Assembly: GCF_009937975.1 (NCBI RefSeq)
Contig: NZ_AP018441.1
Span: forward strand, 6,076,001 to 6,140,000
Origin: Undibacterium sp. YM2
Lineage (GTDB): Bacteria; Pseudomonadota; Gammaproteobacteria; Burkholderiales; Burkholderiaceae_D
Reading direction: 5' to 3'
DNA: 64,000 bases
Part shown: positions 39,910-50,064 of the stretch, in pieces
How the letters are laid out: each line of letters opens with the position of its first letter
How positions within the stretch are numbered: position 1 is the stretch's first letter
Made by a program: the position numbers and the translations under genes
Notes under the pieces: model-generated
Told to the model about the DNA's origin: nothing
The model's input: only the letters and a program-made list of their open reading frames with translations
The model's database searches: none

Positions 39910-42624
39910 ATGGCCACTAATAGCGAACAACGCCCTGACCCTGATGTCTTGCTTGCCCATGTGCAGGAGCAAGAACGCCGGGCCACGCGTGGCAAGCTGC
40001 GTATCTATTTTGGTGCATCCGCTGGCGTAGGCAAGACCTACGCCATGCTGACTGCCGCACGCAAGCTGGTGGCCGAAGGCCAGCAAGTGTTAGTTGGCGT
40101 TATAGAAACCCATGGCCGTGATGAAACCGCCGCCCTGGTCGATGGTCTCGAAGTCTTGCCACCCAAGGCCATTGCTTACCGCGACAAGACCCTCAGTGAA
40201 TTCGACATAGACACAGCGCTGGAGCGCCATCCACCCTTGATACTGATGGATGAACTGGCGCATTCCAATGCTGCCGGTTCACGCCACCCCAAGCGCTGGC
40301 AAGACGTCGATGAATTGCTGAGTGCCGGTATCGATGTTTACACTACCGTCAATGTCCAACATCTGGAAAGCCTGAATGACGTAGTTGGTGGCATTACCGG
40401 CATACGCGTCAATGAAACCCTGCCAGACAAGGTGTTTGATGAGGCTGATGAAGTTGTGCTGGTGGATATTCCGGCTGACGAATTGCTGGCCAGGCTCAAA
40501 TCTGGCCGGGTTTATAAAGTACAGCAGGCAGAACGGGCTGCCAAGAATTTTTTCCGCAAAGGTAATCTGATCGCTTTGCGCGAACTGGCCCTGCGCCGCA
40601 CCGCCGACAGGGTCGAAGATGATGTACAGGCCTATCGCATAGAAAAGTCCATAGGCACGATCTGGAAGACTGATGCCGCCCTGCTGGCCTGCATAGGCCC
40701 ACATGGTGATGCCGACCACCTGGTACGCAGCGCTGCCCGCCTGGCCAGCCAGATGAATTCTGAATGGCATGCCGTGTATGTAGAGACGCCGCAATTGCAA
40801 AGGCTGCCATCGGCGCAGCGCGAACGCATTTTAAAAACCCTGAAGCTGGCGCAAGACCTGGGTGCAACCACGGCTGTGCTGACTGGTAAGGATATTGCGC
40901 TGGCGATAGTTGATTATGCGCACAGCCATAATTTTTCGCGCGTGGTGCTGGGGCGGAGTAAGGCAAGCAAATGGCGACTTGCCTGGTATCAAACGACACA
41001 TCTGAAAGACATAGGGAGCTATGCACCTGATCTGGACGTGATCGAGGTTGGACAAAGCCGCTCCGGTGCTGCAGAGAATGAGAATAGAAAAAACGCGTCT
41101 GATGGCACAGCTGACTTGCCCAGTCCACGAGTACCAGCACGGCATTGGCGATATTTTTATGCGCTACTGGCCAGTATAGCCACCGGCCTGATAGCTACAC
41201 CTCTCTTTGAGATATTCAATCTCGTCAATATTGCCATGCTGTTTTTATTGACGGTGGTGCTGGTGGCGGTCAAATTTGGGCGCGGCCCTTCGGTGCTATC
41301 TACCATCGTTGGTATTGCCGTATTCGATTTCTTCTTTGTACCACCGCGTTTTTCGTTTGCGGTCAGCGATTTGCAGTATTTGCTGACCTTTGCCGTCATG
41401 CTTTTGGTGGGGCTGATCACCGGTCATCTGACTGCTGATCTGCGGTATCAGGCCAGGGTGGCATCGCACAGGGAATCGCGGGCGCGTGCCTTGTATGAAT
41501 TCGCCCGTGACTTATCCGGTGTTTTATTGGCCGAACAGATTTCAGAAACCACTCAGCTCATCATACAAAGGGCTTTCCGCGCCCAGGCAACCCTGTTATT
41601 ACCGGATGATAACGGCCGTTTGCAACCACCTGCCGCTGCAGTAAGCGGCCTGGACATGGGCATTGCGCAATGGGCTTTCGACAAGGTAGAAGCCGCAGGC
41701 ATAGGCACCGATACCCTGCCCGCCAGTAACTTCTTTTACCTGCCGCTGGTGGCACCCATGCGCACCCGTGGCTTGCTGGCGATACAGCCAGAGAGCAAGC
41801 GCTGGATCATGATCCCTGAGCAAAGGCAGCAACTCGATACCTTTGCCGCCCTGGCAGCGATAGCATTGGAGCGTGTGCACTATATCGAAGTCGCACAAGA
41901 TGCCCTGATCCACATGGAATCTGAACGCCTGCGTAACTCCCTGCTGGCTGCGCTGTCACATGACTTGCGCACGCCGCTGACTTCGCTGGTAGGCATCTCG
42001 GAATCCCTGGCTATGTCCAGACCCGCACTGGCAGATGCGCAACTGCACATGGCGCAGGCCCTGCGTGACGAGACCCTGCGCCTGTCTGCCCTGGTGACCA
42101 ACCTGCTCGACATGGCGAGGATAGAAAGTGGTGAAGTCAAACTGAATCTCCAATGGCAAACTTTTGAAGAAGTGGTCGGCACTTCCCTGCGCATCTGCAG
42201 CGCGCAACTGCAAACACATCAAGTGGAAACCAGGCTGGAAGCTGCTTTGCCTCTCATCAATTTTGATGCCGTACTGATAGAGCGGGTGCTGTGCAACCTG
42301 CTGGAAAATGCCTGCAAATACACGCCAGAAAATTCACTCATCACGATCTCGGCAGAACTCAATGGCAGCATGCTGGAAGCCAAGGTCTACGACAATGGGC
42401 CGGGTTTGCCAGCCGGGCGTGAAGAAGCCATATTTGAAAAATTTACCCGGGGTGAACGTGAATCTGCCCTGCCCGGCGTTGGCCTGGGGCTGGCAATTTG
42501 CCGTGCCATTATCACGGCCCACAAGGGCAGCATGCATGCAGCGCAGTCGCCCAATGGTGGAGCCTGCTTTGTATTTACCCTGCCTTTAGGCACGCCACCG
42601 GCGATGCCTGATCTTGAAGAATAA
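39910..42624 (+). CDS. kdpD: KdpD, potassium/turgor sensor histidine kinase
   Basis: 904 residues. N-terminal KdpD domain with a Walker A motif FGASAGVGKTYAML and the DELAHSNAAGSRHPKRW segment, a USP-like domain (about 250-370), four transmembrane helices (about 415-510), a GAF-like region, then HisKA with ALSHDLRTPLTSLVGI and HATPase (NLLENACKYTP, DNGPGLP, GVGLGLAICRAI). Senses K+ limitation or ionic strength and phosphorylates KdpE. Ends 7 bp before the kdpE start. Confidence 0.97.
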   Translation: MATNSEQRPDPDVLLAHVQEQERRATRGKLRIYFGASAGVGKTYAMLTAARKLVAEGQQVLVGVIETHGRDETAALVDGLEVLPPKAIAYRDKTLSEFDIDTALERHPPLILMDELAHSNAAGSRHPKRWQDVDELLSAGIDVYTTVNVQHLESLNDVVGGITGIRVNETLPDKVFDEADEVVLVDIPADELLARLKSGRVYKVQQAERAAKNFFRKGNLIALRELALRRTADRVEDDVQAYRIEKSIGTIWKTDAALLACIGPHGDADHLVRSAARLASQMNSEWHAVYVETPQLQRLPSAQRERILKTLKLAQDLGATTAVLTGKDIALAIVDYAHSHNFSRVVLGRSKASKWRLAWYQTTHLKDIGSYAPDLDVIEVGQSRSGAAENENRKNASDGTADLPSPRVPARHWRYFYALLASIATGLIATPLFEIFNLVNIAMLFLLTVVLVAVKFGRGPSVLSTIVGIAVFDFFFVPPRFSFAVSDLQYLLTFAVMLLVGLITGHLTADLRYQARVASHRESRARALYEFARDLSGVLLAEQISETTQLIIQRAFRAQATLLLPDDNGRLQPPAAAVSGLDMGIAQWAFDKVEAAGIGTDTLPASNFFYLPLVAPMRTRGLLAIQPESKRWIMIPEQRQQLDTFAALAAIALERVHYIEVAQDALIHMESERLRNSLLAALSHDLRTPLTSLVGISESLAMSRPALADAQLHMAQALRDETLRLSALVTNLLDMARIESGEVKLNLQWQTFEEVVGTSLRICSAQLQTHQVETRLEAALPLINFDAVLIERVLCNLLENACKYTPENSLITISAELNGSMLEAKVYDNGPGLPAGREEAIFEKFTRGERESALPGVGLGLAICRAIITAHKGSMHAAQSPNGGACFVFTLPLGTPPAMPDLEE

Positions 42625-42631
42625 GCACACG

Positions 42632-43339
42632 ATGACTACTGCTACTCAAACAACACCAGTCGCCTTGCTGGTTGAAGATGAACCACAGATACGCCGCTTC
42701 GTGCGCAATGCGCTTGAAGAAGAGCAATGGCAAGTCCATGAATCAGTCAACTTGCAACGTGGTCTCGTCGATGCCGGTACACGCCAGCCTGACCTCATCA
42801 TCCTTGACCTGGGTCTGCCAGATGGCGACGGCATCGATTTCATCCTCGATGTACGCAAATGGTCTAACGTACCCATCATCGTCTTGTCTGCCCGCGTCAG
42901 TGAACAGGACAAGATCAGGGCGCTGGATGCCGGAGCAGATGATTACCTCAGCAAGCCTTTTGGTGTCGGCGAATTGCTGGCACGCGTACGCGCGACCTTC
43001 CGGCGTCAGCGCCAGCCTGGTGTCAATCTGGATGGCATAGTCCAGTTCGGTGATGTCAAGGTCGATATGAAAGCCCGCCTGGTGACCAAGGCCGGGGCGA
43101 TGGTGAAGCTGACACCGACAGAATTCCGGCTGCTGATGGTGCTGGTCACCAATGTTGGCAGGGTCGTCACCAACCCGCAATTACTGCGTGAAGTCTGGGG
43201 CCCCAGCCACTCCGAAAGCGGCCATTACCTGCGCATCTACATGGGGCATTTGCGACAGAAACTCGAAGATGACCCGGCACAGCCGCGTTATCTCTTGACG
43301 GAAACAGCGATAGGCTACCGCCTCTTGCTCCCAACTTAA
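42632..43339 (+). CDS. kdpE: KdpE, OmpR-type response regulator
   Basis: 235 residues from the ATG at 42632; a TTG at 42614 overlapping kdpD is also in frame. Receiver domain with acidic pocket (LLVEDEPQIRR), phosphoacceptor Asp in IILDLGLPDGDG, Lys in DYLSKPFGVGELL; winged-helix DNA-binding domain with TPTEFRLLMVLVTNVGRVV and SGHYLRIYMGHLRQKLE. Activates the kdp operon, probably from the leader at 34.9 kb. Confidence 0.96.
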   Translation: MTTATQTTPVALLVEDEPQIRRFVRNALEEEQWQVHESVNLQRGLVDAGTRQPDLIILDLGLPDGDGIDFILDVRKWSNVPIIVLSARVSEQDKIRALDAGADDYLSKPFGVGELLARVRATFRRQRQPGVNLDGIVQFGDVKVDMKARLVTKAGAMVKLTPTEFRLLMVLVTNVGRVVTNPQLLREVWGPSHSESGHYLRIYMGHLRQKLEDDPAQPRYLLTETAIGYRLLLPT

Positions 43340-43435
43340 AACCACGTAGCAATATGAATAACCGGCAGCTTCCTGGCTCGCCGGTGGGACTTTTGCATCC
43401 TTAAATTTTGCAAATACTTTTTTGAGAGGACTCAA

Positions 43436-44170
43436 ATGAAAAAACTCATCATGGCAGCAGCCATCAGCACTGTCTTTTTTGCCACATACGCCAGCGCAGA
43501 AGATGCCAAACCTGAACATGAAGTCAGCTTCAATGCAGCAGTGACTTCTGACTATCGTTATCGCGGCATTTCGCAAACACGTCTGCAAGCTGCATTGCAG
43601 GGTGGGGCTGACTATACCCATAACCCCAGCGGCTTTTACGCTGGCACCTGGGCATCCACCATCAAATGGACCAAGGATGCCGGTGGTGGTGGCGATGTGG
43701 AAATTGATCTGTACGCAGGCAAGCGTGGCGAGCTCAGCAAGGACATCAGTTATGATGTTGGCGTACTCAGCTACGTTTATCCGTCGAATGGCCTGGCTGT
43801 GAGCGCCAACACTACAGAGATTTATGGCCAGCTTTCCTACGGCCCGGCCTATGCCAAATATTCACACTCTGTCACCAACCTGTTCGGTTTTGCTGACAGT
43901 AAAAACAGTGGTTACCTGGACCTGGGCGCGAATGTGGAAATGGCCGCTGGCCTGACACTGAACCTGCATGCCGGTCACCAGCAAGTCAAGAACAATGGCG
44001 CTTACAGTTATACAGACTGGAAGCTGGGTCTGACAAAAGACTTTGGTATCGTTACAGGTGCTGTGGCCGTCATCGGCACCAATGCCGGTGAAGTGGCTTA
44101 TGCATCGCCAGCCAATGGCAAGTTCCTGGGCAAGACAGCACTGGTCGTCACGGTTAGCAAGACATTCTGA
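43436..44170 (+). CDS. TorF-like putative porin
   Basis: 244 residues. Signal peptide to ASAE, then a beta-rich protein beginning VSFNAAVTSDYRYRGISQT, the hallmark of the TorF/TIGR02001 family (usually SNVTLTSDYRFRGISQS). Ends with an outer-membrane-type phenylalanine (VTVSKTF). Predicted outer-membrane barrel. It lies 96 bp after kdpE with its own ribosome site GAGAGGA, so regulation may be separate. The family's transport role is not established. Confidence 0.9.
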   Translation: MKKLIMAAAISTVFFATYASAEDAKPEHEVSFNAAVTSDYRYRGISQTRLQAALQGGADYTHNPSGFYAGTWASTIKWTKDAGGGGDVEIDLYAGKRGELSKDISYDVGVLSYVYPSNGLAVSANTTEIYGQLSYGPAYAKYSHSVTNLFGFADSKNSGYLDLGANVEMAAGLTLNLHAGHQQVKNNGAYSYTDWKLGLTKDFGIVTGAVAVIGTNAGEVAYASPANGKFLGKTALVVTVSKTF

Positions 44171-44189
44171 ATAAGTCCTGATTAGCATC

Positions 44190-44214
44190 GTAGGGTACGC
44201 ATGGCGCACCCTAC
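44190..44214 (+). terminator. Hairpin after the TorF-like gene
   Basis: GTAGGGT and ACCCTAC pair, extended by CGC/GCG with one mismatch, around an ATG loop; CTCTTTTTTT lies about 16 bases further on. This resembles a widespread intergenic hairpin (GTAGGGTGCGC type) in related genomes, recalled rather than checked. It may act as a terminator between the convergent operons. Confidence 0.55.
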
Positions 44215-44268
44215 AAAACTCAGATCTCTTTTTTTACTAGGTTTATTTTTGAATATGGAACAAGGCAA

Positions 44269-44850
44269 TCACGGCAAATAGATTGCCCTGTAAAGCTGTG
44301 TCATCGGCATATCATTTGCTGCATCGAGGTAAATAAATTTGATATGCGAAAGTTGCTGCGACAACTGGCTGACAAATTTCTGGCTCTGCATACAAGCGAT
44401 TCTATCTATTGTGATCAGCACTGGTAAATCCTTATTTTTACTGCGTGCCAATCTGATGCATTTATAGAGTTTCGCCTGTTTTTCTTTATCCCATGTCTCC
44501 AGTTCTGTATGGCATATCAGCAAATCACAGCAAGATAAAGCAGTGGCTGCATTTGCATAAAATGGTTTCGGAATATCCATCACAATATCGTGAAAATCTG
44601 TATGTTCAGACACCAGCTCTTTGGTCATGGCATCGGTGGAAAGTAAACTGGATATGGCACCCGCTTTTATCTCCAGGCGTGACCAGGCAATATTTTCAGC
44701 TTCATTCCGGTATTGGTTCGCCTGCTTTCTCTCGCAATTTTGTTTGAGCAGCAAGACGTTCCTGCCTGAATGTGCCCGGCGTTCAGCCAGCCTGGTTGCA
44801 GTGCTAGAAGTTGCTGCTGCAAAGTCTGCAGTCACTATTGCGACTATCAT
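44269..44850 (-). CDS. ParA/MinD-like protein with missing Walker A motif
   Basis: 193 residues from the ATG at 44850, which overlaps the stop of the membrane gene (ATGA at 44847-44850). A longer in-frame start would run through that gene and is rejected. The opening strand MIVAIVTADFAAATSSTATRL occupies the place of the MIVVxxxKGGVGKST segment in ParA-type ATPases, but the lysines and glycines are gone. The next strand GRNVLLLKQN replaces the VLLVDxD segment. The middle FHDIVMDIPKPFYANAATALSCCDLLICHTEL follows the DxxxxD/P (Walker A') layout. It is probably a non-hydrolysing paralogue. Family by pattern only; role unknown. Confidence 0.6.
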   Translation of the reverse strand: MIVAIVTADFAAATSSTATRLAERRAHSGRNVLLLKQNCERKQANQYRNEAENIAWSRLEIKAGAISSLLSTDAMTKELVSEHTDFHDIVMDIPKPFYANAATALSCCDLLICHTELETWDKEKQAKLYKCIRLARSKNKDLPVLITIDRIACMQSQKFVSQLSQQLSHIKFIYLDAANDMPMTQLYRAIYLP

Positions 44851-45317
44851 GGCAAGTGCACTCCTGAAGAAAAATGCACATGCATGCCAGTCAGCAGTTC
44901 CTGTGTTGCCAGCATGATTATTATCAGGGCCAATAATTTTTGAAAACTGATGAGTAGCAGCGCGTAATTGTTTTGACGGGGTCGCTGCTGACCCGGGAGT
45001 GCCACCACTATCTGTATGAAACTGGTAAAGACAAGCATCAGCATAGCTTCTATCAACCAGCTCTCGGTATTCGTTTGATACATTGCGATTGAAGACAGAG
45101 ATGCTGTGGCCACCAAGCAAATTGAGATGCCAAAACCCTGCTCAGTTTCTTTATTCTTTTGCTTGATCCCCATGAAGATGCAGATAGCAGTTGCGAGCAG
45201 TATCAATCCAGCAATTATCTGTAATCTCAGGTCTTGTATCTGTAAATAGGCAAGCACTGCAAAGCCAGACAAAGTCATGCTGCTGTATGCAGCCAGCGCA
45301 ATAAGCAGGCGTTTCAT
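44847..45317 (-). CDS. Five-helix membrane protein of unknown function
   Basis: 156 residues, about five transmembrane helices (near 5-25, 33-52, 63-82, 88-108, 118-142). Between helices are short charged loops (KQKNKETEQ, PGQQRPRQNN). No family recognised. Same strand as its neighbours, 17 bp after the MinD-like gene and overlapping the next one by 4 bp, so all three are in one operon. A membrane partner for the two ATPase-like proteins is a reasonable inference. Confidence 0.7.
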   Translation of the reverse strand: MKRLLIALAAYSSMTLSGFAVLAYLQIQDLRLQIIAGLILLATAICIFMGIKQKNKETEQGFGISICLVATASLSSIAMYQTNTESWLIEAMLMLVFTSFIQIVVALPGQQRPRQNNYALLLISFQKLLALIIIMLATQELLTGMHVHFSSGVHLP

Positions 45318-45334
45318 TACGTGCGGTATATATC

Positions 45335-45982
45335 TCAGTGATTGGCAAAAACCTCGCTGGATAATGCCTGCATGGCCTTGATCGTCATGGGATGGGCAGC
45401 AGGGTATTCACAGACTGACAAGCCATGCTGATAGGCCTGATGGAAACTGCCACCGCAGAATAAGGGATAGGGAAATAACTCAGCAGCGTCCAGCTTGCTG
45501 ACAAAATCCTTTACCCTGTTCACTTTATCGGCGGTAGCCTGTACGTCACTGCAACTCATGACGACCAGGGTGCGCATGCGCGGGTTTTCTGCCTGTGCAA
45601 ACTGTATGCGCATACTCAGTTCCTGCTCTTGTAATTGCGCGAGTTGATCAAGGTCAATCACCAGTATCGTGACATGAGCCGCTTGCAGGGCGCTGCGGCT
45701 GCCCATGCAGTCGCGTGCTTCTGCATCGATGACGATATCCTGGTAATGAAAACCGAGGTTTTCCAGTTCTGCCTGCATGCCCTTGCCGCTGACCCTGCGT
45801 ACCGTGACTGGTGTGCAATCCATACTGCGGCGGCGGGCGCGGCTCCAGTCCAGTGATGAATGACGGGCATCGTTATCGAGCAAGATAAGTTTGCTGCCTG
45901 ATAGTGTACGCAAGGTAGCGAGATTGTCGGCCACGATGGATTTGGCGCAATCTCCCGCGCCATGTGCAATGGTGATGATCAT
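45335..45982 (-). CDS. MinD/ParA-like ATPase with deviant Walker A
   Basis: 215 residues. Begins MIITIAHGAGDCAKSIVADN, where ParA/MinD has KGGxGKST: one lysine in place (AKS), first glycine and signature lysine altered. The next strand GSKLILLDNDARHSSLDWSRAR is close to VLLVDxDxQxSxxxW of the VirC1/ParA type. FHYQDIVIDAEARDCMGSRSALQAAHVTILVIDLD and the tail LFPYPLFCGGSFHQAYQHGLSVCEY also fit. ATP binding is possible, hydrolysis uncertain. First of the three tightly spaced genes; 21 bp after dapA. No parB or plasmid genes are near, so partitioning of DNA is unlikely. Confidence 0.65.
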   Translation of the reverse strand: MIITIAHGAGDCAKSIVADNLATLRTLSGSKLILLDNDARHSSLDWSRARRRSMDCTPVTVRRVSGKGMQAELENLGFHYQDIVIDAEARDCMGSRSALQAAHVTILVIDLDQLAQLQEQELSMRIQFAQAENPRMRTLVVMSCSDVQATADKVNRVKDFVSKLDAAELFPYPLFCGGSFHQAYQHGLSVCEYPAAHPMTIKAMQALSSEVFANH

Positions 45983-46003
45983 GTTGTATATTGATGAGAG
46001 TAT

Positions 46004-46948
46004 TCAGCGCACCATGCGCAGGGTACGGACATTGTGGATGACAGGAGCAGGCAAGCTCCTGGCTTTGACAGGCAGGGGCAAGTCTGCCAGTCTCTCCAGC
46101 TCTTGTGCGAGTTTGATTTTCCCTGCAAGCGACATGGCTGTCATGGGCAGGCGCATTTCTTCCTGTATCAGACCCTGCATTGCCAGGGCTGCCTTGACGG
46201 GTGCCGGATTGGATTCAGAAAACAGCAGGCGTACGAGATTTTGCATTTCGGCAAACAGAGCCTGTGCTTCAGGAAAATAATCGGCGCGCATGAGTTCATA
46301 CAATTGCACGAACAGATCAGGCCGCACATGCGCCGCCGCAGAAATAGCACCCTGGCCACCCATGCTCAAGGTATCCATCAACATGGCATCATCACCGCAT
46401 AAAACCTTCAGGTGGCTGCAATTTACCAGACCCATCATTTGCGTCAGATTGCCACTGCTCTCTTTGATAGCGACGATATTCTTTTGCTTTTCCAGTGCAA
46501 TGACGGTGCTCAGGTCTATATTGACGCCGGTTCTGGCTGGCACGTTATACAGGACGATATCTTTCTCAGTCGCCCTGGCGATAGTCTCTAAATGCAGGCG
46601 CACACCTTCTTGTGAAGGACGCAGATAAGATGGTGCGCTGACCAGAAAACCTTGCAGATGCTGGTCATCATAAGCTTGTACTTTTTCTGCCAGCGAACGT
46701 GTATCGCTACCGCTGATACCCATCAGTACAGGACAAGAATTTTTCGTCACTTCCAGCACGGCAGCCAGCAACTGTTTTTGCTCATGCTCAGTCAGTATCG
46801 CCGCTTCCCCAGTCGTGCCACAGACCACCAGGCCATGTATGCCTGCTGCCATCAATTGCGTAGCAAGTTGCTGTATTTTATCGAGCTCAGGTTTGCCATT
46901 CTTAAATGGCGTGACAAGCGGAACCCAGATGCCTTCATAGATAGACAT
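46004..46948 (-). CDS. dapA: 4-hydroxy-tetrahydrodipicolinate synthase family protein
   Basis: 314 residues, about 20 longer than standard DapA. TIM-barrel aldolase family: GLVVCGTTGEAAILTEHE, APSYLRPSQEG, VLYNVPARTGVN with the active-site tyrosine and arginine, and the Schiff-base lysine in IVAIKESSGNLTQ. Tyr, Thr-Thr and Arg positions agree with true DHDPS, which makes the first lysine-pathway intermediate from pyruvate and aspartate semialdehyde. The C-terminal extension (KARSLPAPVIHNVRTLRMVR) is unusual. It lies in an operon with ParA-like proteins rather than lysine genes, so this could be a paralogue of another specificity. Confidence 0.88.
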   Translation of the reverse strand: MSIYEGIWVPLVTPFKNGKPELDKIQQLATQLMAAGIHGLVVCGTTGEAAILTEHEQKQLLAAVLEVTKNSCPVLMGISGSDTRSLAEKVQAYDDQHLQGFLVSAPSYLRPSQEGVRLHLETIARATEKDIVLYNVPARTGVNIDLSTVIALEKQKNIVAIKESSGNLTQMMGLVNCSHLKVLCGDDAMLMDTLSMGGQGAISAAAHVRPDLFVQLYELMRADYFPEAQALFAEMQNLVRLLFSESNPAPVKAALAMQGLIQEEMRLPMTAMSLAGKIKLAQELERLADLPLPVKARSLPAPVIHNVRTLRMVR

Positions 46949-46993
46949 AGTGTGATCTCTCTTTAAAAATGGGAGTGAATGTGGTGTTGTAAA

Positions 46994-47311
46994 TCAGACC
47001 GCCAGCAGTGGTGTGATTTTCCCGAATTCAGCTTGCGGCAAGGCGCGCATGATGTGACTGATGACAGTATCGACTGAGGACTTACTCAGACACAGCCATA
47101 CCTTCATTTTACTCGCATGGTCTATCGGTTTGACGCGCATGACGAAATCATTTTGTACTAATTTCGCTGGCGTCTTATAGATAACCAGGGGTTGCTGTAG
47201 CGCATAGGCGCTTTTGCGTTGACGATGATTTTCAAATAAAAATTTCTCGCGTTTGCAGGACTTTAATACGTCTGAATAATTTTCAGAGCTGTGGCCGGGA
47301 TGATGATTCAT
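46994..47311 (-). CDS. Small protein of unknown function at the head of the dapA/ParA-like cluster
   Basis: 105 residues from the ATG at 47311 (a longer start at 47341 exists). No signal or membrane segment. N-terminal half basic (KREKFLFENHRQRKSAY); C-terminal half may fold as strand-helix (MKVWLCLSKSSVDTVISHIM). Same strand as dapA, 45 bp upstream of it. No family recognised; a small regulatory or adaptor protein is possible. Coding character moderate. Confidence 0.5.
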   Translation of the reverse strand: MNHHPGHSSENYSDVLKSCKREKFLFENHRQRKSAYALQQPLVIYKTPAKLVQNDFVMRVKPIDHASKMKVWLCLSKSSVDTVISHIMRALPQAEFGKITPLLAV

Positions 47312-47436
47312 CGTAATCTCGTGTTGTTTGACACAAAACAAGATTAGCAGCCACGGCGTAAAGATTCTCTAAAAAATGAGGGTGAAAATCGTAAACAGCA
47401 TGTAAATTCTTTGCATCCCTATCTTATTAATTATTC

Positions 47437-48867
47437 TTACTCTTTCGTCTCGCTCAGTAATTGTTTGAGGTTCAGATGCAGGTTTTCTGCCTGTATGGGT
47501 TTGTGCATCAAGGTCAGCGCTGCCGTCTTGGCAGCTTCTGACAACTGTGGAGAGATATTGCCGGTGATGAGTATGGCGGGTATCTGCAGATTGAATTCTT
47601 CACGCAGCTTGGCAACCAGGTCTATGCCGTTTTCATTGGAACCGAGGCGGTAATCACAGATCAGCAAATCAGGAATCTTGATTTCTTCACTGCACAGTGC
47701 CATCGCCTCTTTGCCGGACGTGGCGGTAATGACGCGGGCGTCCCAGAGTTCCAGCAAGGCACGCATGGCCGTTAATATGCTCTCGTCATCATCGATGACG
47801 ACAATCAGGGCTTGCAGCAGGGAGGCGCTGTTGCTGGCCTTGCTGCGGCCATGTTTGTCTGTTACATCCTGGCTGGCAGCCAGGGGCAGACTGATTGCAA
47901 ATGTCGAGCCCTGGCCAGGCTGTGATTGCAATTTGATGGGGATGTTTAAAAGTCGCACCAGTCTTTGTACGATGGCCAGGCCCAGCCCCATGCCTGCGGT
48001 GCTGTGTCGGGATTCAGATGCTGACCCTACCTGGAAAAATTCTTCAAAGATGGTTTCCTGGTCATGTTTCGAAATACCTATGCCGGTATCTTCCACGGCG
48101 ATATGCAACTGCTGGTCAAACTCCAGGCACTTGACCACGACCTGGCCTTTTGGGGTGTAACGCAGGGCATTGGCAATCAGGTTGCGCAGTATCTGTTCGA
48201 CCAGGTCGGCGTCGCTATTGACGATGGCCATGCTGTGGTGGATTTCAAAATGCAGACCCTTGGCGATTGCCTGGGGTGTGAATTCCACATCGAGTTTTCC
48301 CAGCACTTCGGCAATCGCAAATTCCTGCAATTGCGGTTCGACGATTTGCGCATCCAGGCGTGACAGGTCGAGCAGATTTGCAAACATGTCATCCATGGTA
48401 CGTGCGCAGTTTCTGAGATTGTTCACGACAGGGCGCACAGCGGCTGGCAGTTCAAAACTGAACAGTGCACCGAGATAGAGATTCAGCGCATGCATGGGCT
48501 GGCGCAGATCATGGCTGGCAACGGCCAGAAAGCGTGTCAGTTCGCTTTGTTGCGCTTCTTGCCGTTTATTCACTTTCAGCAAGGTCTGGTTGATTTTTTC
48601 GAGTTCTTCTTTTTGCGCCTGTATTTCCGCAGTCCTGAGCCTGATTTCAGTTTCCAGTGCCCGCTTCTGCCGTTTCAGAGCGCGCACGTGCCAGGTATAA
48701 GCCGCAGTAATGATAGCCAGTGCCACCAGGGTCAGGGTCAGCCAGAACCAGATGTCTTGCCCGTGGGGTGATGTCAGGTCAGCGGCAGGCGCGGCTGCTC
48801 CGGCCACTTGCCAGGGATAAGCCAGCATGGCAAAAACTGTCAGCAGGCAGTTGCGGAAATTAAACAT
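47437..48867 (-). CDS. Hybrid sensor histidine kinase with C-terminal receiver
   Basis: 476 residues from the ATG at 48867, picked because it opens a signal peptide (MFNFRNCLLTVFAMLAYP...AGAAA); the longer frame upstream runs through the ABC operon's terminator. A short periplasmic stretch, one transmembrane helix (about 40-60), a coiled coil (KRQKRALETEIRLRTAEIQ and on), HisKA (AVASHDLRQPMHALNLYL), HATPase (NLIANALRYTP, DTGIGI, GMGLGLAIVQRL), then a REC domain with VVIDDDES and CDYRLG (phosphoacceptor). The HDLRQP motif is typical of the branch with very small sensor parts. Signal unknown. Upstream of the dapA/ParA-like cluster on the same strand, 125 bp apart. Confidence 0.93.
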   Translation of the reverse strand: MFNFRNCLLTVFAMLAYPWQVAGAAAPAADLTSPHGQDIWFWLTLTLVALAIITAAYTWHVRALKRQKRALETEIRLRTAEIQAQKEELEKINQTLLKVNKRQEAQQSELTRFLAVASHDLRQPMHALNLYLGALFSFELPAAVRPVVNNLRNCARTMDDMFANLLDLSRLDAQIVEPQLQEFAIAEVLGKLDVEFTPQAIAKGLHFEIHHSMAIVNSDADLVEQILRNLIANALRYTPKGQVVVKCLEFDQQLHIAVEDTGIGISKHDQETIFEEFFQVGSASESRHSTAGMGLGLAIVQRLVRLLNIPIKLQSQPGQGSTFAISLPLAASQDVTDKHGRSKASNSASLLQALIVVIDDDESILTAMRALLELWDARVITATSGKEAMALCSEEIKIPDLLICDYRLGSNENGIDLVAKLREEFNLQIPAILITGNISPQLSEAAKTAALTLMHKPIQAENLHLNLKQLLSETKE

Positions 48868-48943
48868 CTTGAGGGCATGCGAGGCAAATAAGATGAAATA
48901 AGGCTTCAGTATACAGCCTGGAGCAAAATTCCTGCCTTGAATG

Positions 48944-48978
48944 CAAAAAAGCCCCACATTGTTGTCCAATGCGGGGCT
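48944..48978 (-). terminator. Rho-independent terminator of the iron-type ABC operon
   Basis: AGCCCCACATTG and CAATGCGGGGCT form a 12-bp stem with one mismatch and a 5-base loop (48950-48978). On the minus strand the stem is followed by six U (48944-48949). It lies 22 bp after the ATPase stop. Confidence 0.92.
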
Positions 48979-48999
48979 GTCTTCGGCTATGAACGGTTT

Positions 49000-50064
49000 T
49001 TAATACAGCCAGAGCTTGTCGGCATCAAGTTGCAAATAATACTCACCCGGATTCAGCTTGAATGGAGAGTATGCACGCAAGCCATCTTCGGCGTGACCGA
49101 ACAGGCATTCCCAGCGGTCACCAAGATACATGCAGGTCGTCAGCGGCAGTTTGATGGCGTTGTCGCTCTGGCTGTCAGTGATCTTGACTTTTTCCAGACG
49201 GATGATGGCAGTCGCTTCTTCACCGACATTCTTGCCACGCACAGTCGCTTTCAATTGCGCGCCATTGACACTGATGGTTGCGGTGTCGCCATTGCGCTGG
49301 ACTACCTTGCCTTTGAGCTTGTTATTGCTGCCCATGAATTCAGCTGTGAACAAGGTGTCCGGCGTTTCATACATGCTTTGTGGTGTGCCCTGCTGTTCTA
49401 TGACACCGTTGTTCAATAACAGGATACGGTCAGAGATTGCCATCGCCTCACCCTGGTCATGCGTGACCATCAGAGCCGACAGATTCAACCTGACGATCAG
49501 TTCACGCAAGAAGGCACGTGCTTCTTCACGCAGCTTGGCATCGAGATTGGACAGCGGTTCATCCAGCAGGATGACCGGCGGGTTATATACCAGTGCCCGC
49601 GCAATCGCCACGCGCTGTTGCTGGCCACCTGACAGTTGATGCGGGAAACGCTCACCCAGATGACCCAGCCCCAACTGGCCCAATACATCCTTGACCTTGT
49701 CACTGATTTCGCTGCTGCCCAGCTTGCGCAACTTCAGGCCGTAGGCGACATTGTCGAATACGGTCTTGTGTGGCCACAGGGCATAGGACTGGAATACCAG
49801 ACCCAGGTTGCGCTGTTCTGCAGGTACTTCCAGGCCTTTGCTGCCATCAAAAATGGCGCGTTCACCCAGGGTGATGGTGCCGGTCTTCGGTGATTCCAGC
49901 CCAGCTACGGCGCGCAGCAGTGTGGTTTTGCCGCTACCCGAAGGGCCCAGCAGGGCGACCACTTCGCCACGCTGCAAATTCATCGACACCCCTTTGAGGA
50001 TGGGGTTGGCAGTCGCACCGGAACCGTATTCCAGGGTCAGATCTTTTACGCTTAATTCAGACAT
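49000..50064 (-). CDS. ABC importer ATPase (FbpC/PotA-like)
   Basis: 354 residues. ATP-binding cassette with Walker A LLGPSGSGKTTLLRAVAG, Q-loop VFQSYALWPHKTV, signature LSGGQQQRVAIARAL, Walker B VILLDEPLSNLD, and H-loop MVTHDQGEAM. The C-terminal TOBE-type domain (from about 250) is that of iron/spermidine/sulfate importers. Last gene of a three-gene operon with the fused permease and binding protein. Energises uptake of Fe3+ or a similar ligand. Confidence 0.93.
   Translation of the reverse strand: MSELSVKDLTLEYGSGATANPILKGVSMNLQRGEVVALLGPSGSGKTTLLRAVAGLESPKTGTITLGERAIFDGSKGLEVPAEQRNLGLVFQSYALWPHKTVFDNVAYGLKLRKLGSSEISDKVKDVLGQLGLGHLGERFPHQLSGGQQQRVAIARALVYNPPVILLDEPLSNLDAKLREEARAFLRELIVRLNLSALMVTHDQGEAMAISDRILLLNNGVIEQQGTPQSMYETPDTLFTAEFMGSNNKLKGKVVQRNGDTATISVNGAQLKATVRGKNVGEEATAIIRLEKVKITDSQSDNAIKLPLTTCMYLGDRWECLFGHAEDGLRAYSPFKLNPGEYYLQLDADKLWLY

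Follow-up and report, generated by a model that had tools for sequence, protein, structure and literature searches.

Proteins of the ParA/MinD class are ATP-driven positioners, the two halves of ArsA act on the membrane protein ArsB, and IlvN is a regulatory subunit found beside its synthase. The NAAT family of membrane proteins includes MarC and YchE, and in DapA (dihydrodipicolinate synthase, DHDPS) the classical lysine pocket is not universal. In the window analyzed here (64,000 nucleotides of Undibacterium sp. YM2, contig NZ_AP018441.1, positions 6,076,001 to 6,140,000), relatives of several of these proteins are encoded by a run of five genes on the minus strand at 44269–47311, in the order small protein, DapA, ParA1, membrane protein, and ParA2, with intergenic gaps of 45, 21, 17, and −4 bp. 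We tentatively read this locus as an amino-acid-metabolism module that adopted ParA-fold pseudo-ATPases as a scaffold or switch, and not as a partitioning motor, a reading that we prefer as possible rather than probable. The open reading frame positions agree with the five same-strand genes and gaps listed in a preliminary description of this DNA; its authoring model knew of no described system with this set, and our searches of open-licence PMC papers found no description of it either.

The recurrent gene order is more than chance. The ParA2 profile matched 12 of the 43 Undibacterium genomes, the ParA1 profile found the same 12 at E ≤ 5.8e−50 (the remaining matches were at 6.5e−23 or weaker, many of them short), and the full order was present in 11 of the 12, i.e., in all 11 evaluable loci with the window included. 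In the twelfth genome (G207) ParA1, the membrane protein, and ParA2 were present, and the contig stops just upstream of ParA1, so that the small gene and DapA could not be judged. The named hosts among these loci are U. pigrum DSM 19792, Undibacterium sp. TS12, U. umbellatum NL8W, and a Burkholderiales metagenome-assembled genome (genes in the relatives' loci were called with our own scripts). The order was kept across divergent species (ParA1 43–100% identical), with all five frames open in the evaluable loci, and the conserved co-occurrence that the preliminary description had proposed to look for was thereby found. Within the window genome (6.66 Mb), the single ParA1 sequence gave one match at E ≤ 0.001, and the profile added one weak match elsewhere. 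The five genes are under purifying selection: the ratio of non-synonymous to synonymous substitution rates (dN/dS) was well below 1 for all of them, with 0.05–0.16 for ParA1 (15 pairs), a constraint equal to that of DapA, 0.13–0.34 for ParA2 (11 of 15 pairs, dS being saturated in 4), and 0.17–0.49 for the membrane protein (6 pairs).

Profile and structural comparisons placed both ParA-like proteins in the ParA/MinD fold class, as had been proposed. ParA1 matched the ParA structure 3cwq by profile (5.8e−8), ParA2 matched ParA1 (E 5e−10), and the predicted structure of ParA2 was a ParA/MinD fold, with several of BcsQ, FleN/FlhG, MinD, MipZ, and McdA among its structural matches. The likeness to the ParF/ParA partition ATPases (NF041546; ParF of TP228) extends to the fold, a length of about 200 aa, and the places of the P-loop and of the DxD and DIVID strands. 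Unlike these ATPases, both proteins lack the signature lysine, which in the alignment was present in 0/29 ParA1 and 0/14 ParA2 sequences vs. 9/9 canonical ParA sequences. The P-loop segment of ParA1 reads HGAGDCAKS and its equivalent in ParA2 TADFAAATSS, exactly as previously reported; the accompanying claim that the nucleotide sites are degenerate in both is supported. ParA2 is without P-loop features and without the Walker A' Asp; as a qualification, ParA1 keeps the P-loop Lys (K14), the Ser, the Walker A' Asp, and the Walker B Asp, and has mainly lost the signature lysine and glycines. Among ParA1 sequences the P-loop Lys was kept in 24/29 and the Walker A' Asp in 28/29.

In the hidden Markov model (HMM) searches, no model was found whose cut-off ParA1 or ParA2 reached: ParA1 scored 61 bits (E 9.2e−17) and ParA2 19 bits against NF041546 (cut-off 180), and ParA1 scored 17.4 bits against the MinD model TIGR01968 (cut-off 212.9), for which ParA2 was not listed. 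The HMM check of the neighbourhood covered five proteins (39910 to 50064), and among them no partition or division partner, no DNA-binding partner, no cellulose-synthesis gene (the partners of BcsQ), and none of the partner genes of FleN/FlhG, MinD, MipZ, or McdA was found. In ParA dimers the signature lysine touches the ATP of the other subunit (PMC5393062). DNA partitioning or Min function was considered unlikely in the preliminary description, and the lack of the signature lysine, the low HMM scores, and the five neighbours checked bear this out. Membrane-associated positioning, its further suggestion, would be conjectural; ATP-driven patterning of the ParA/MinD type is unlikely without the signature lysine.

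An origin of ParA2 within Undibacterium only is not favoured, as two DapA-linked proteins of genus g40 (G089 and G144) grouped with the Undibacterium ParA2 at 98/97 (midpoint root; long branches flagged). Two side observations concern ParA1: in genus g6 (L007–L018) it is about 180 aa long, having lost its C-terminal part but not its P-loop-to-GSRSAL core, and in g40 loci L147 and L095 its P-loops read GVGVAKP and GSCNAKL, and where DapA would otherwise precede it stand genes that we take to be MoxR-like and VWA-domain-like.

The widest association at the locus is that of the small protein with DapA, a pair frequently found next to kdp and a porin of the TorF type, and the backbone is not the ParA pair, because of the distribution of these genes in Oxalobacteraceae and other Burkholderiales families. 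The small protein was found in 48 of 195 Oxalobacteraceae genomes (52 loci), with DapA directly downstream in 33 of the 52. DapA occurred at 58 places (E ≤ 1e−55), 38 of them close relatives (E ≤ 5.8e−92), and the small gene lay within 3.5 kb of 37 of these 38 (the exception being G188) vs. 1 of the 20 weaker ones. A ParA followed DapA directly in at least 16 loci and the small gene directly in at least 9; these are lower bounds, as the count took all 52 small-gene and all 58 DapA places and 36 of the 61 ParA places from a one-sequence search. Many Oxalobacteraceae small-DapA loci carry a ParA-fold protein without the signature lysine alongside, and in genus g29 8 of 9 had no ParA nearby (the ninth, G130, had a weak one). 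The order-wide search, in which at most 10 small-gene candidates per genome were scored (at most 7 in another scan), found the gene in at least 7 of 399 genomes. Among five loci of other Burkholderiales families, three had the small-DapA pair, without an adjacent ParA, and in the other two, which lack DapA, kdpC and the porin gene flank the small gene. From this distribution, the ParA proteins probably joined the small-DapA pair later. Genus g40 shows other combinations, with two converging units in G144 (small-ParA1 and DapA-ParA2, i.e., both ParA types without the membrane protein) and DapA-ParA2 plus a separate small gene in G089.

Two observations on the small gene stand apart. In family f34 (L138, L139), where DapA is missing, it lies between kdpC and the gene of the TorF-type porin, a hint of a DapA-independent link to the kdp region, and genome G087 (genus g37, 68% complete, 3% contamination; L092) has three small-protein loci on contigs C393, C236, and C226, with and without DapA.

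The enzyme is of the DapA type, as first described, with 249 bits against TIGR00674 (cut-off 206) and 211 bits against DHDPS. Its catalytic Thr44, Tyr107, Tyr133, Arg138, and Lys161 are all present, and the six catalytic positions were complete in 16 of 18 small-linked or small-near DapAs (18 of 19 rows counted, g6 G048 being left out; two g40 rows near, not directly behind, the small gene), the exceptions being f4 G361 (Ser at 44) and g40 G144 (Ser at 44, Asp at 133). A passage of PMC5109050 gives the catalytic residue set and names His or Glu at position 56 as marking lysine inhibition and Lys or Arg as marking insensitive enzymes, with Gln56 outside what it covers; here we found 15 Gln, 2 Lys, and 1 Arg, and no His or Glu. 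Positions 53, 80, 84, and 106 contact lysine (PMC11201819), and the window enzyme has E, Q, S, S, and S at 53, 56, 80, 84, and 106, which does not correspond to the classical lysine allosteric pocket. Lysine feedback through that pocket was rejected on account of these replaced contact residues. The window genome contains four further DapA-family matches, one of which (33% identical) is likely the housekeeping enzyme, because an NlpB/DapX lipoprotein gene follows it and it scored 375 bits; the locus enzyme thus differs from a standard DapA/DHDPS in being a paralogue.

The small protein, previously listed as unknown, is indeed present, although that label missed its predicted ACT/PII-like family, its place with DapA in the core of the locus, and the internal shortening of the window copy. 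The intact protein of a sister species (G208) was predicted to adopt an ACT/PII-like fold (beta-alpha-beta-beta-alpha-beta). In the window gene, 81 bp are deleted in frame between two TCATGCG repeats. Three relatives in the alignment lack this deletion, which may be recent or may be an assembly error. In its predicted fold and its position beside a pyruvate-using biosynthetic enzyme, the protein resembles IlvN, stand-alone ACT subunits, and PII proteins; it differs from IlvN and ACT subunits in lacking an ACT HMM match and in having a DapA-type partner.

The membrane protein appears from its sequence to be a worn-down MarC/NAAT relative. Its five hydrophobic segments, already recognized in the preliminary description, were confirmed by hydropathy (six in the G209 orthologue), whereas its MarC-like identity had been missed. 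The orthologues match the MarC/YhgN/YchE models, with G207 above the Pfam MarC cut-off (41.0 vs. 23.9), and of the copies entered in the NCBIfam comparison (7 of 12), 6 matched MarC/NAAT models at E ≤ 0.0014, all below the cut-offs. Unlike them, the window copy lacks the first helix; it scored 18.6 bits against NF008010 (cut-off 215, E 0.0014, profile positions 42–195), a weaker match than those of orthologues, stayed below every cut-off, and had no Pfam MarC match at E ≤ 1.

If the locus is an amino-acid-metabolism module with adopted pseudo-ATPases, the small protein would sense a ligand for the DapA paralogue as a subunit of its own, in the manner of IlvN with acetohydroxyacid synthase. ParA1 would perhaps be nucleotide-bound without hydrolysing in the usual way, and ParA1 and ParA2 would form a static pair holding the enzyme, the regulator, or both at the MarC-like protein, which could be engaged in transport; alternatively, the pair could serve as a nucleotide-state switch. 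Several observations weigh against this proposal. For instance, 19 of the 38 small-DapA loci had no adjacent ParA (in a ParA search of limited sensitivity), i.e., the core needs no ParA, and ParA2 and the membrane protein are under looser constraint than the other genes, the membrane gene of G226 measuring only 109 aa (own gene calling). The linked DapAs are not alone in having lost the lysine marker, because an unlinked 44% identical paralogue in the window genome carries Gln56 too (Asn80 and Tyr106 are retained there), and the f31 and f4 DapAs keep Tyr106. The deletion in the window takes most of beta1, alpha1, and the start of beta2 from the ACT/PII-like fold, a fold that is itself widespread (S6, EF2 domains, and PII reach similar scores), and no ACT model was listed for the window copy, for the G209 copy, or, on NCBIfam, for five family members.

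The strongest rival, although unlikely in our judgment, is decay, in which genes once inserted beside small-DapA are losing their function, the two ParAs and the MarC-like protein being what remains of them, and the order reflects inheritance only. It gains from the 81-bp deletion in the window genome, and the mounting P-loop losses from ParA1 to ParA2, the missing first helix and the very short G226 copy of the membrane protein, the shortened ParA1 of g6, and the dN/dS values, highest for ParA2 and the membrane gene, fit it as well, as does the fact that one of the closest canonical ParAs by sequence (L144) lies beside genes that we read as type I restriction-modification-like. Decay is opposed by the open frames, by dN/dS well below 1 in five genes, with ParA1 as constrained as DapA, and by the survival of the order across divergent species.

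We regard as rather doubtful a bolder form of the preferred proposal, in which a partition ATPase captured beside an ACT-DapA pair became a two-subunit pseudo-ATPase (one subunit nucleotide-binding, one dead) that would couple a MarC-type permease to a lysine-pathway-type enzyme and its sensor, i.e., a membrane-tied metabolic switch. It is very unlikely that ParA1 and ParA2 act on the MarC-like protein as the ArsA halves act on ArsB, gating or assembling an amino-acid permease whose substrate DapA and the small protein would supply and sense. This working analogy draws on two paralogous ParA-fold proteins on either side of a single membrane protein of the NAAT type, whose gene overlaps that of ParA2 by 4 bp. 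The membrane gene stays between the two ParAs in five divergent Undibacterium loci (G154, G187, G209, G217, and G225) and in G207; the analogy conflicts with a ParA2 that has no ATPase motifs and, judged by motif, cannot bind nucleotide, with the lost helix of the window membrane protein, with a permease of a different family than ArsB, and with g40 G144, where the two ParA types are present and the membrane protein is not. True cargo positioning by ParA1 with a non-standard active site, partnered by the small protein or ParA2, is similarly improbable: the retained P-loop Lys and Walker A' Asp, and the frequent location of ParA/MinD genes near cargo genes with very diverse partners (PMC10241942), speak for it, and the signature lysine missing from 29/29 ParA1 sequences and the NCBIfam scores far under the cut-offs speak against it.

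The features of the locus and its surroundings are listed below. The five HMM-checked neighbours are a porin, KdpD, a response regulator, a histidine kinase, and an ABC ATPase. Where proteins are named as kdp products, porins, or lipoproteins, the name comes from an HMM for some only and from resemblance for the others.

Table 1. Coordinates of the five-gene run and two flanking genes in the window
Feature	Position	Strand	Description
Small protein	46994..47311	-	105 aa; family predicted ACT/PII-like (translation, DNA alignment, model of the intact G208 copy); copy with 81-bp in-frame deletion
DapA (DHDPS) paralogue	46004..46948	-	314 aa; full set of catalytic residues, replacements in the lysine pocket
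ParA1	45335..45982	-	215 aa; ParA fold; no signature Lys, no glycine ahead of the P-loop K
Membrane protein	44847..45317	-	156 aa; five hydrophobic segments; putative shortened MarC/NAAT relative
ParA2	44269..44850	-	193 aa; ParA fold, P-loop and Walker A' Asp absent; first 4 bp shared with the membrane gene
TorF-family putative porin	43436..44170	+	Convergent with the operon; PF09694, TIGR02001; adjoins small genes in other families too
KdpD sensor kinase of kdp region	39910..42624	+	PF02702

Scans for promoters (7 sites vs. 5.6 in shuffles) and terminators (3 vs. 3.6) gave about chance numbers. A lysine riboswitch or other known RNA was not detected at gathering score in 9 related loci, and the single match in the window between 43000 and 50100 was the snoRNA sR23 (E 0.73, 17.4 bits vs. 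45 needed). The hybrid histidine kinase beside the operon (47437–48969) has 510 aa, and its counterpart open reading frames in two relatives have 1238 aa (L072, 3615–7331) and 1253 aa (L074, 3401–7162).

With a lysine-pathway-type enzyme, a small regulator-like protein, and a transporter-like membrane protein joined to two ParA relatives that lack residues required for ATP hydrolysis, the locus suggests the recruitment of what was once a DNA-segregation protein into the metabolism of amino acids. If true, a constrained ParA lineage free of the signature lysine and tied to an enzyme and an ACT-like protein would offer a view of what this fold does without its motor, and the ACT-like/DapA pair would be a case of a DHDPS paralogue in which control may sit on a separate subunit instead of in the lysine pocket.

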